64,000 bases of DNA, taken from positions 3,483,484 to 3,547,483 of the forward strand of contig NC_009253.1 in assembly GCF_000016165.1 (NCBI RefSeq), in the 5' to 3' direction. This DNA is from Desulforamulus reducens MI-1. GTDB taxonomy: Bacteria; Bacillota; Desulfotomaculia; Desulfotomaculales; Desulfotomaculaceae. Below the pieces are notes generated by a model. That model did no database searches. It was not told the origin of the DNA and was given only the letters and a program-made list of their open reading frames with translations. Positions 3,456 to 58,065 of the stretch are shown here, one piece after another. The translations under genes were made by a program, and so were the position numbers. How positions within the stretch are numbered: position 1 is the first letter of the stretch; each line of letters starts with the position of its first letter.

Positions 3456-3473
3456 GCTACACAAGTTAGAAGA

Positions 3474-3562
3474 TTCTTTCCCTCCGCTGGCATTACCCAG
3501 ATCAGGTTTACGGGTCGGTACCCCTAGGGCCCCCTCTCAGCCAGCTTTCCCAGCTCCCCGGC
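3474..3562 (-). promoter_or_regulatory. TPP (THI-box) riboswitch
   Basis: The minus strand carries the THI-box core: GCTGAGAG (near 3532-3541), then AACCTGATCTGGGTAAT, then GCCAGCGGAGGGAA. This is the TPP-sensing pyrimidine and pyrophosphate helix pattern. The downstream hairpin with a T run gives a transcription-termination switch for the thiamine transport operon. Confidence 0.95.
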
Positions 3563-3736
3563 CAATATTTAATTCTAGTTGTAACTATACCAGCAAGTCC
3601 TTGCTTTGTAAATGTGTCTGTTTTTCCAGAGAATCCTCCTTGCTGTTTATAAACTTTTTCTGTATTAACGTTATCACTACTCACTCCGATCTCCATCCAG
3701 ACAACACTAGGCAGACCGCCGGCGCCAAGCCAGCGT

Positions 3737-54468: not shown

Positions 54469-54675
54469 CTATCCCAATTCTTTTTCGGTTATCAAAAGTT
54501 CTACTAAACGTATGTTTGTCAATCCTGCTTTTTTTCCGCTATCAACCAATACATTAATATTTTCATGGGAAAGGGTATTGAATACACTGGCTTTTTCAAG
54601 GGGAACGCAAACAGGAGCCTCGGAATTGCTATTCTTGAGGTAACCCTGATCTGATTTAACCACAAATAATCTCAC
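54469..54675 (-). CDS. Small conserved-looking protein after trpD-like gene
   Basis: A 68-aa soluble frame starting at GTG 54675 (AGGGGC about ten bases upstream), ending IRLVELLITEKELG. Its compositional pattern (GYLKNSNSEAPVCVPLEKASVF) looks like a real small protein, but I recognise no family. It lies 60 bases after the TrpD-like gene and could be the third member of the cobalamin-riboswitch operon. Confidence 0.5.
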   Translation of the reverse strand: MRLFVVKSDQGYLKNSNSEAPVCVPLEKASVFNTLSHENINVLVDSGKKAGLTNIRLVELLITEKELG

Positions 54676-54735
54676 TTAATTATCAGCCCCTTCAGCTTCT
54701 TTTAAAGAAAACTTGGCTTCCGCTATACCCTATAA

Positions 54736-55860
54736 TTAGCCCTCTAATCCTGCTGTTGCTAACACCATCTTTAATTTTGCAAGTCCCTTTTGGGTTTCTC
54801 TGTTTTGCTCTTTAACCCAATCTTTCAGTTTGTTAAGCGCAGACCCCGAAGCAATAATTTCTTTAGCATAAATGCATCCTTCTCTTATGCTGCTGCTTAA
54901 TCCCATCATATAAAAAATTAACGCAGCATTAAGACAAACAATATCCTGCCTTGCTTCATCATCTTTTTTGCTTAAAAGAGTGACCAGCCTTACAGCTTCC
55001 TTCTTTCTCTCCCCCAACGGCTGCAGCTTGTGTTTTTGGGTTCTTTGAATTCCCATATCCTCGGGAGAAAAAGAGTACTTAACAATTTTGCCATCTTCTT
55101 TTAGCTCCGCAATTACCGTTTCGCCAAGCGTAGAGGCTTCGTCCATACCATACTTCCCGGTTTCATCCATCCCATGCACAACAAGAGCCTTTTTATAGCC
55201 AATTTCCCGCATAACTTTGGCAACAGGTTCTACCAGTTCCGCTGAATACACACCCCGTACCCCATATTGCGGAAGAGCAGGATTGGCAAGGGAAGCAGCA
55301 ATATTTAAAACTGTCCCAAAAGAAATTTTTGATAAAATCCTACCCAAGGCCTGAGGATGCACCTTTGGACTCATTCCATTAAAAATTCCTATTCCTGCTT
55401 GTTCAATACTTTGTTTTACAACTGTAGTATCGCATTCAACATCTACACCCAGTTCTTCCAGAATATCTATCGTCCCGCACACAGAGGTAATGGCTCTAGC
55501 GCCGTGTTTGGCCATTTTAACTCCCGCCGCCGCCGCAATAATAGAAGCAGCAGTGCTAATATTAAAAGTTTTTATTGTATCCATACCCGTCCCACAGTTA
55601 TCTACCAAGGGGGATGAAATATAGGGATTTACTTTCACTGTATCTAGCTCATAAATCGCCTCCCAAATTCCTGCTATTTCAGCAGCTGTTTCCCCCTTTG
55701 CTGTTAATGCCGCCAGAAATGCTCCTTGCTGCATTTCCGTTTGCGTATTGTTTAACACTTCAGAAAACTTTTCTTTCGCAGTGGCACGGTCCATATTTTC
55801 CTTCTGAAGCAATCTGGTGATGAGACCACCAAATTCTTTTTGCTTTTCAATACTCATCAT
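54736..55860 (-). CDS. Divergent anthranilate phosphoribosyltransferase-like protein (TrpD paralogue)
   Basis: Protein of 374 aa in the TrpD/nucleoside phosphorylase fold. It keeps an N-terminal helical region (residues 8-70), NCGTGMDTIKTFNISTAASI (PRPP-type loop, GTGMD in place of GTGGD), and AKHGARAITSVCGTIDILEELG (KHG retained, then A where TrpD has N). The usual TrpD segment GPLLNP is replaced by IAASLANPALPQYGV. No other trp gene is near; it follows a dehydrogenase by 19 bases under a cobalamin riboswitch. It may therefore use another aromatic or heterocyclic acceptor. AAGGAG precedes ATG 55860. Confidence 0.75.
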   Translation of the reverse strand: MMSIEKQKEFGGLITRLLQKENMDRATAKEKFSEVLNNTQTEMQQGAFLAALTAKGETAAEIAGIWEAIYELDTVKVNPYISSPLVDNCGTGMDTIKTFNISTAASIIAAAAGVKMAKHGARAITSVCGTIDILEELGVDVECDTTVVKQSIEQAGIGIFNGMSPKVHPQALGRILSKISFGTVLNIAASLANPALPQYGVRGVYSAELVEPVAKVMREIGYKKALVVHGMDETGKYGMDEASTLGETVIAELKEDGKIVKYSFSPEDMGIQRTQKHKLQPLGERKKEAVRLVTLLSKKDDEARQDIVCLNAALIFYMMGLSSSIREGCIYAKEIIASGSALNKLKDWVKEQNRETQKGLAKLKMVLATAGLEG

Positions 55861-55879
55861 TCATTTCTCCTTATCTAAT

Positions 55880-56917
55880 TTAACATTTAACAACAATTTT
55901 AAGTTCTGCCAGTTTCTCCACCATTCTAAGTCCCTCTTTTATATCTTCTAACGGAATAATTTTTGTAATGAGATTATCCACCTCCAGCATCCCGGAAGAT
56001 AATAATAACAATGCTTTTTTATTGTGTTCCGAAGAACACCCATAGGCTCCAAAAAGTCGGATTTCCTTGTAGTGAAAATTATTCAATTCACCGACAGAAA
56101 CGGCATGCTCCCCTACAAGACCACTGAAAAAGCCAAATTTTCCCCTTTTACGAAGAATAGACAATCCCTGCCGGAAGGCTGCAATATCTGGACAGCAAGG
56201 TATAACGGCCTCTGCTCCAGTTCCATCGGTAAGCTCACGGACTACTTTGACAGGATCTTGCTCCAAGGGGTTAAACAAATGGCAAAATGCAAAGCCGGCA
56301 GCCTGGTGGAGTCTTTTTTTATTAACATCAAAAATTGCAATATTTTTTGCACCGCGCAGCTTGGCCAGTTTTGCATTCAAAATCCCCACTGGCCCGGCTC
56401 CAAAAATAATAATAGTATCTCCTGAGCCAATGTCCATAGACTCCTGAATGTTAATACAGCATGCCAAAGGCTCTGTCAAAGCAGCAAGTTCTATAGGAAA
56501 GTGATCCGGTAGTTTGTTAAGCACCTTTGCCTTGACTCCTTTGGAAGGAATCAGCACGTATTCAGCAAAGCCGCCGTCATAGTGAAAGCCCATTATCTCA
56601 ATATTTGGGCAAAGATGATTTAATCCTGTAAGACAATTTGGGCATACACCGCAGGGCAAACCAGGAGAAACCTGAACTCTTTCCCCACAATGTACTTCTG
56701 TGACCCCTGCTCCAATTTCTACAACTGTTCCGGCTATTTCATGCCCCAAAATTCTTGGTAAATGCAAATCTCGATGGCCTAGACGGTATGATTTCATATC
56801 TGTTCTGCAAATACCACAGGCAGCAACCTTTACCAGTACTTCCCCTGCTTTGCAGCGGGGTATTTCTATTGTTTTAAGCACCAAATTATTTGCCTGCTCC
56901 AATAAAAATGCTTTCAC
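55880..56917 (-). CDS. Zinc-dependent medium-chain alcohol dehydrogenase
   Basis: MDR oxidoreductase of 345 aa. Catalytic zinc ligands are Cys in AACGICRTDM (near 37), His-Glu in LGHEIAGTV and a later Glu; the structural zinc loop is CGVCPNCLTGLNHLCPN. The NAD site is IIFGAGPVGILNAKLAKLRGA near 170. It resembles sorbitol/threonine/butanediol-type enzymes. The start is GTG 56917, with AAGGAG eight bases away; the longer frame crosses the terminator and is excluded. First gene behind the cobalamin riboswitch. Substrate unknown. Confidence 0.85.
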   Translation of the reverse strand: MKAFLLEQANNLVLKTIEIPRCKAGEVLVKVAACGICRTDMKSYRLGHRDLHLPRILGHEIAGTVVEIGAGVTEVHCGERVQVSPGLPCGVCPNCLTGLNHLCPNIEIMGFHYDGGFAEYVLIPSKGVKAKVLNKLPDHFPIELAALTEPLACCINIQESMDIGSGDTIIIFGAGPVGILNAKLAKLRGAKNIAIFDVNKKRLHQAAGFAFCHLFNPLEQDPVKVVRELTDGTGAEAVIPCCPDIAAFRQGLSILRKRGKFGFFSGLVGEHAVSVGELNNFHYKEIRLFGAYGCSSEHNKKALLLLSSGMLEVDNLITKIIPLEDIKEGLRMVEKLAELKIVVKC

Positions 56918-56944
56918 CTCTTGCACTCCTTTCAATTTATTGCC

Positions 56945-56985
56945 AAAAAAAAATAAAGTCCACACCAATAATTGGTATGGACTTT
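56945..56985 (-). terminator. Intrinsic terminator, cobalamin riboswitch expression platform
   Basis: Stem AAAGTCCATACCAAT / ATTGGTGTGGACTTT with one mismatch and no loop base to spare, followed on the minus strand by ATTTTTTTTT. It stands between the aptamer and the dehydrogenase start. Confidence 0.9.
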
Positions 56986-57033
56986 CCACATCCTTACTTA
57001 GCTTGCCTTAATTTTAAGGCAACATTGATAATT

Positions 57034-57180
57034 TCAGGCAGGTCTCCTGACTCAGGATCATTACCCTATGCTCCCTTCCCCTTCTTCAGAGTGGATCAAT
57101 GCATGGATTCCCCATTCACAGTGGCGGGCCCGTTCGAGATTTCCACTCGATTCCCTATTCTCCCATTACAGGCACCTGAA
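57034..57180 (-). promoter_or_regulatory. Cobalamin riboswitch
   Basis: Minus strand shows the B12-box GCCACTGTGA (near 57115-57125), GGGAATCGAGTGGAAATC in the 5' domain, and GAGTCAGGAGACCTGCC at the 3' side. Outer ends TTCAGG/CCTGAA close helix P1. A terminator hairpin follows, so high cobalamin should stop transcription of the dehydrogenase operon. Confidence 0.93.
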
Positions 57181-57229
57181 ACCAACACTATTTAATTAAT
57201 ATTTATTATATTTATCCTTTTTTACCATG

Positions 57230-58065
57230 TCAATATCTTCCAAAAGACATGATATATTCTATGTCATTACTATCTTTATTTAATTGCTCAGTTACCGTAT
57301 TAACTAAGTGAGTTAACGCTTTCATTACGCCGGTATTTCTAGCAACTACGTAATCTATGGGTGCTGAACCACTCTCATCCAGATGCTTCTGTCCTACCGA
57401 CGTCACTGGTTTCTTTATATTCTTGCAGCCTGATTCTGCTAAAACCAACACCGTCATGGTGGCGTTTAGCAATTGGTTTGTATCCTTGACATGAAAAAAC
57501 TCTCCATGGGTAAAAAAAACTGCTGTAGGTGCTATTTCTTGAAAGGGTTCGGTTTCTATCCTACTTAAATCCTGCAGAAAACCCCTTCTACATTCACAGG
57601 AATAGATAAAAACACTTTCAACAGGTTACCGCCTGGAATCCCTTTTAACATCTGGTCGGAATCAAACGAAACTCCCGTAGCAAATAAAATTAATAGCTTG
57701 GACTTGTCGCTGCCTAGCGTAGAGGCAACCTCTCGGCCTAAATTAAATTCATCCTGGTCTTCTTTATAAAAAATACCCGTTTTGACAGTGGTATTTCGAA
57801 AAACTGTAAAAGATAGAACAATCTTAAGCCCAGTTACCTGTCCATTCATGATCTCGCCAGAAGTAGTAGTACCAATAATCTTTGCATGAGGGACTAGCGT
57901 GGCAATCTCTGCTGACAATCTCGCAATTACATCCTGTTTATATAGGCCACTAAATATCTGTACTAAAATATCTGATCTTTCCGAATCAAACAATAAGCCG
58001 TGGTTACTTTCTACAAATTCTGATAAGTGAACATAATCCTCATAGTATGTATTGATTGACTCCAC
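57230..58065 (-). pseudogene. FIST-domain sensor, frameshifted
   Basis: The first frame (58065-57565) holds a FIST N domain: SERSDILVQIFSGLYKQD, IIGTTTSGEIMNG and GREVASTLGSDKSKLLILFATG. A frameshift near 57575 moves the continuation (GFLQDLSRIETEPFQEIAPT, FIST C-like GEFFHVKDTNQLLNATMTVL) to another frame ending at 57230. The protein would be about 278 aa, without the kinase or chemoreceptor output domain that FIST sensors often have. FIST domains bind small ligands such as amino acids. Confidence 0.78.

Follow-up and report, generated by a model that had tools for sequence, protein, structure and literature searches.

Which organisms are able to use a cobamide depends on its lower ligand. 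In a 2018 survey of 11,000 genomes, in which bluB, bza and arsAB served as the lower-ligand markers, 42% of the predicted bacterial cobamide producers were without known genes for benzimidazole synthesis or phenol attachment; the same survey grew Desulfotomaculum (Desulforamulus) reducens MI-1 for corrinoid analysis and reports five newly verified producers (PMC6461909). Among the genes of the published bza operon is also cobT (PMC8123684), and CobT converts NaMN to α-ribotides (PMC9561151). Here we report on an operon in a 64,000-nt window (the whole stretch of D. reducens MI-1 DNA that was analysed) that comprises the genes for a zinc dehydrogenase (M), a TrpD-like phosphoribosyltransferase paralogue (T) and a small conserved protein (S68). 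The best explanation of our data, to which we assign a probability of roughly one half, is that M, T and S68 constitute a cobamide-repressed accessory module that acts in the lower-ligand (CobT) branch of nucleotide-loop assembly. The M-T pair might share a role in lower-ligand supply with the BluB and BzaABCDEF routes, to which it has no homology. T and CobT or ArsAB occupy a common pathway neighbourhood and are predicted to transfer phosphoribose to a ring compound; however, T belongs to an unrelated sequence family and co-occurs with CobT, which uses NaMN (PMC9561151). Among the open-access papers searched we found none tying TrpD-like proteins to cobamides, and the one Chlorobium paper with both terms names trpD only in a figure legend.

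The leader and the genes M, T and S68

On the minus strand the order is promoter, aptamer, terminator and then M, T and S68, with gaps of 19 and 60 nt between the three genes. The predicted sigma-70-type promoter (TTGACA-17-TATAAT; positions 57205..57233, minus strand) matches the consensus at 12/12 bases with a spacing of 17 nt. It is followed by a cobalamin riboswitch aptamer that covers the full RF00174 model (57020..57194, minus strand; cmscan 107.3 bits, E 6.6e-26), well above the gathering score of 31.5 bits, and by an intrinsic terminator (56955..56985, minus strand) having a 14-pair stem, a 3-nt loop and a T-run (U9); the fold z of the leader is -3.15. This agrees with the preliminary description, which had noted a complete cobalamin riboswitch and a terminator. 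The terminator sits between the aptamer and M, the first gene, and would as such be an expression platform able to shut off the downstream genes. With adenosylcobamide bound to the leader the terminator would form, such that the operon would be on only when cobamide is scarce; we infer this regulation by cobamide from the conserved riboswitch element. Besides the cobalamin aptamer, Rfam matched the window at one place only, a TPP riboswitch aptamer (RF00059, 62 bits) at positions 3462-3570 on the minus strand. Upstream of the cobalamin riboswitch (57230-58065, minus strand) there are two ORFs that read like fragments of one FIST-type sensor protein, and these perhaps represent a broken gene.

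M (55880..56917, minus strand) is an NAD-type zinc MDR dehydrogenase with the domains ADH_N and ADH_zinc_N. Translation probably begins at GTG 56917, which AAAGGAG precedes by eight bases, and not at the longer start in the ORF list (GTG 56989), since the latter falls inside the terminator region. Threonine dehydrogenases are the nearest solved structures, and M has the fold family, the zinc ligands (which are conserved) and the NAD-type nucleotide site in common with L-threonine 3-dehydrogenase and other zinc MDR polyol dehydrogenases. However, it scores 201.7 bits against the Tdh equivalog, under half of the cut-off (458.35), and in contrast to L-threonine 3-dehydrogenase it carries a conserved signature of its own (G-x-R-D-L-x-x-P-R, I-x-G-F-x-x-D-G-G-F and H-Y-x-E-x(4)-G-x-Y-G-C). 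T (54736..55860, minus strand) follows M, and S68 (54469..54675, minus strand) encodes a protein of 68 aa. All three genes had been proposed previously, S68 only tentatively; homologues of S68 lie just 3' of T in 29 of 95 T loci, and it is thus a real conserved gene. The S68 family has no Pfam or PHROG match. Its predicted model is confident (pLDDT 93) and gave no confident match in the PDB comparison, and identification of S68 by fold was therefore dropped.

T and the anthranilate phosphoribosyltransferases

T scores 283.6 bits against the TrpD equivalog (TIGR01245), exceeding the cut-off of 199 bits. Its domain matches are Glycos_transf_3 and Glycos_trans_3N only, and it does not match the CobT family (DBI_PRT, PF02277). 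The AlphaFold model of T (pLDDT 92.5) superposes on AnPRT with PRPP (1zxy) with a Z of 43.6 and 1.8 Å over 340 residues, and the fold is accordingly that of anthranilate phosphoribosyltransferase TrpD (1zxy/1zyk, 9ucw). For comparison of individual residues, 36 T proteins were aligned with 21 true TrpDs, among them the S. solfataricus enzyme, identical to 1gxb. The PRPP/magnesium residues G79, T80, G81, D83, N89, S91, T92, D223 and E224 are kept in 36/36 T proteins, and position K106 is K in 32 and R in four of the 36. On the other hand, all 36 have A or S for N109, L for R164, S for P178 and M for G82, while the true TrpDs have N, R, P and G at these positions in 21/21 cases. T has in other words the residues by which TrpD holds PRPP and magnesium and lacks those by which it binds anthranilate, the Asn of KHGN and the Arg at position 164. 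The change in the GP loop and those giving GTGMD for GTGGD and KHGA for KHGN, the latter two of which had been noted before, are hence real and family-wide in the 36 aligned T proteins. According to the PDB entry titles, the M. tuberculosis AnPRT variants N138A and R193L have been solved in complex with PRPP (4x58, 4x5b). We take N138 and R193 to correspond to alignment positions N109 and R164 of T. Because the PRPP/magnesium residues are kept, the anthranilate residues are lost and the two variants hold PRPP, T looks, from its sequence and model, like a naturally occurring AnPRT whose donor site still works and whose acceptor site has been erased and made more apolar.

In a midpoint-rooted tree T and TrpD split cleanly, with node supports of 0.57 for T and 1.0 for TrpD, where the midpoint labels are no strict test; T forms its own clade in this tree, apart from the 21 true TrpDs, and a clustering with true TrpD, which the preliminary description had named among the refuting outcomes, was not seen. 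A separate true TrpD (300-440 bits) was found in all 18 T-carrying genomes that were searched and CobT is present in nearly all T-carrying bacteria, so T replaces neither TrpD nor CobT. For annotation, the TrpD equivalog models pick up a different enzyme, which calls for caution, and the M-T pair is likely to be mislabelled as trpD and an alcohol dehydrogenase.

Distribution of the pair and its linkage to cobamide genes

Scanning 84,980 genomes, we retained the best 80 T loci (54-72% identity; more distant relatives fall outside this sample), and further loci from whole genomes gave 95 in total, many of them from draft genomes; all locus counts below carry phylogenetic dependence and are not independent samples. 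The best 80 include Peptococcia, Desulfosporosinus, acetogens, Syntrophomonas, Dehalococcoidia, Omnitrophota, Desulfobacterota, Methanothrix, Methanomassiliicoccales and ANME-1-type archaea. M adjoins T in 92 of the 95 loci, in bacteria as well as archaea, and the three exceptions include contig ends; the pair is thus conserved far beyond D. reducens, as one of the checks proposed earlier had asked. The gene order varies (M-T, T-M and T-S68-M), which argues that the link between M and T is selected and not merely inherited. T was found in 8 of 249 genomes of the phylum of D. reducens and in 9 of 247 genomes of the phylum of a Desulfobacterium MAG. The pair is absent from all eight congeners that we examined and is therefore accessory and not core, and its distribution is scattered, in keeping with an accessory function that can be transferred.

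A cobalamin riboswitch lies directly upstream of the pair in 11/11, 8/8, 11/11 and 7/11 bacterial loci in four sets, i.e. in about 35 of 39 distinct loci as two were counted twice; one locus without a riboswitch hit is a truncated contig. These loci include Firmicutes, Dehalococcoidia and Desulfobacterota. CobT adjoins T in 36 of the 95 loci, some with the bacterial and others with the archaeal type, and at a generous 1% chance per locus the probability of at least 36 such adjacencies is near 1e-46, shared ancestry being ignored. M is fused to CobT in proteins of about 705-720 aa in five loci (L054, L076, L111, L112 and L118), and in L025, L055, L066, L078, L114 and L115 the pair is within late cobamide operons. 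In several phyla it lies among cobS, cobD, cbiB and cbiP or next to btuCDF, e.g. in L078 (cobT-cobS-cobD-cbiP-cbiB-M-T-btuFCD) and, where names outside the reference set are our reading of the sequence, in L115 (cbiB-cobD-cobS-cobT-T-M, followed by cobA, cobU and cbiP) and in L117, in which T-M is inside an anaerobic corrin operon next to btuCDF and cbi ring genes. The pair is accordingly linked to, and has regulation in common with, known cobamide genes across phyla. That it would be found beside such genes had been put forward as a check on the preliminary description, and the CobT adjacency and fusions together with the riboswitch bear this out.

CobT was detected in about 31 of 34 bacterial T-carrying genomes; those without it are two MAGs and one case in which T is a fragment at a contig edge. 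Archaeal CobT is hard to detect with PF02277, and archaeal absence counts are not evidence. Within the phylum of D. reducens CobT is present in 7/8 genomes with T versus 119/241 without (p = 0.07), an enrichment that is weak because few genomes there carry T. In D. reducens itself cobT lies away from the M-T operon, near feoB and cobalt-transport-like genes. A T-specific CobT clade was not seen in the tree, where only the M-fused CobTs branch on their own, and T and M are found alongside bacterial, archaeal and fused CobTs alike. Given this, and given that nearly all T-carrying bacteria have CobT, we suggest that T and M support the step catalysed by CobT rather than substitute for it. The corrin-ring marker CbiL is clear in 30 bacterial genomes and weaker yet present in several archaea. 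Since several T-carrying genomes without clear CbiL keep CobT and other late genes (G273 and G528, Dehalococcoidia; G535, Omnitrophota; G524 and G481; mostly draft assemblies), we place M and T at late steps.

Some loci have additional neighbours. In ANME-1-type and related archaea (L018, L020, L021, L024, L029, L030, L040, L042 and L072) a divergent gene for a ribbon-helix-helix and AIR-synthase-like protein adjoins T or CobT-T, and judging from its domains this is possibly a regulator sensing a pathway compound. The Acetobacterium operon is followed by a gene for a cytosolic 5'-nucleotidase (PF06189; 3' of T in L061, L062, L063, L067, L073 and L074), which could dephosphorylate ribotides. 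Away from the M-T operon, a second CobT is found near an ACT-domain-like protein in Acetobacterium (L156, 4823-9919), there also near an apparent phenylacetate-CoA ligase, and in Eubacterium callanderi (L157, 8917-10434). In one member of the Desulfobacterota (L158, G361) there are four CobT genes, one of them in fusion with M, and a few kb away lies a separate operon resembling cobT-cobC-cobS-cobU. Finally, in the Aquificota MAGs L015 and L016 a small radical-SAM gene directly follows T-M, ahead of btuF/btuC/btuD.

Lower-ligand supply and the possible roles of M and T

BluB was not found over the cut-off in any of 26 T-carrying genomes (0/26). A single ThiC-family gene is normally the thiamin enzyme, and 17 of the 26 have at most one; hence most T-carrying genomes are without a recognised base source, which suits a role of the pair in making or preparing the lower ligand. 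It is possible that the lone ThiC-family gene is BzaF in some of these genomes. Two or three ThiC-family genes are present in the other nine, several of which have BzaAB-like tandem pairs, and the M-T pair is therefore not simply a substitute for Bza. T as part of the BzaAB route was also considered and rejected, as there is no consistent link, the pair being present with and without BzaAB.

An AnPRT-type inverting enzyme acting on α-PRPP should yield a β product, whereas cobamides need the α form. Direct base activation by T alone would thus be chemically awkward, and for the same reason CobT or M most likely acts on the T product before CobS does. We infer the donor and acceptor of T, the order of the steps and the role of S68. 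T would use PRPP-Mg like AnPRT, and PRPP is the likely donor; in place of anthranilate it would accept an uncharged aromatic, in all likelihood the lower-ligand base or a precursor. As a Zn/NAD dehydrogenase of alcohols or polyols, M would oxidise the precursor or the ribotide, CobT would then produce the α-ribotide, and CobS would attach it. That the module belongs to cobamide assembly we hold with high confidence, and it probably acts at CobT or the lower-ligand branch, while the exact chemistry of T and M as outlined here is tentative. At odds just short of even, the pair represents a new step in cobamide assembly in which a TrpD-derived phosphoribosyltransferase and a Zn/NAD dehydrogenase jointly make the lower ligand or its ribotide in bacteria and archaea alike, by hitherto undescribed chemistry, either an oxygen-free route using neither BluB nor Bza or an activation based on PRPP and not on NaMN. 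The lower-ligand link suggested in the preliminary description is accordingly well supported at the pathway level by the riboswitch, the CobT adjacency and fusions, and the conserved pair.

We favour T and M acting upstream of CobT over three other ways of accounting for the link to cobamide assembly. T might remake the phosphoribosyl donor of CobT, e.g. NaMN from nicotinate and PRPP, with M carrying out a redox step alongside. Two successive inversions, to β by T and to α by CobT, would fit the stereochemistry, and linkage to CobT whatever its type or clade and independence from BzaAB suit a base-independent function. However, an acid such as nicotinate fits poorly with a site that has lost its anthranilate-holding residues, and M is left unexplained. 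NAPRTase-family genes are moreover present in 6/26 genomes with T and 2/20 without, such that T does not complement an absence of NAPRTase; T as a NAPRTase stand-in was rejected on this ground, and a donor-side role is on the whole unlikely. Slightly less probable again is that the pair serves salvage or remodelling, i.e. recovers or removes unwanted lower-ligand nucleotides or α-ribosides so that the preferred base is attached: the pair adjoins btuF/btuC/btuD in L015, L016, L078 and L117, several T-carrying genomes without CbiL look like salvagers and a 5'-nucleotidase is near T in Acetobacterium, but in most T-carrying genomes CbiL is present, as would be expected of de novo producers, and the tightest partner, CobT, catalyses a building step.

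An activation independent of both NaMN and CobT, in which T uses PRPP to convert the base into its β-ribotide and M epimerises C1' through transient oxidation at C2' to give the α-ribotide, would draw on the conserved zinc ligands and Zn/NAD-type alcohol dehydrogenase character of M, and on its fusion to CobT in five loci. We regard it as improbable, since about 31 of 34 bacterial T-carrying genomes keep CobT, by which T as a CobT replacement was rejected, and we know of no member of this dehydrogenase class that carries out such an epimerisation. Very improbable, finally, is that the cobalamin riboswitch controls T as an ordinary TrpD duplicate or the pair as a B12-independent alcohol pathway. 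T does pass the TrpD equivalog cut-off and annotation pipelines will name it TrpD, but every one of the 18 genomes searched has a true TrpD besides it, the anthranilate-binding residues are lost throughout the aligned family, and the context of cobamide genes across phyla speaks against either possibility, including the alcohol route that the preliminary description had offered as an alternative.

In all likelihood, then, the M-T pair is a hitherto undescribed component of cobamide assembly and not a set of tryptophan or alcohol genes. Being widespread, riboswitch-controlled and tied to CobT, it is a concrete candidate for part of the 42% gap, and it is found in acetogens, methanogens, ANME-1, Dehalococcoidia and sulfate reducers, all groups with a corrinoid-driven core metabolism.
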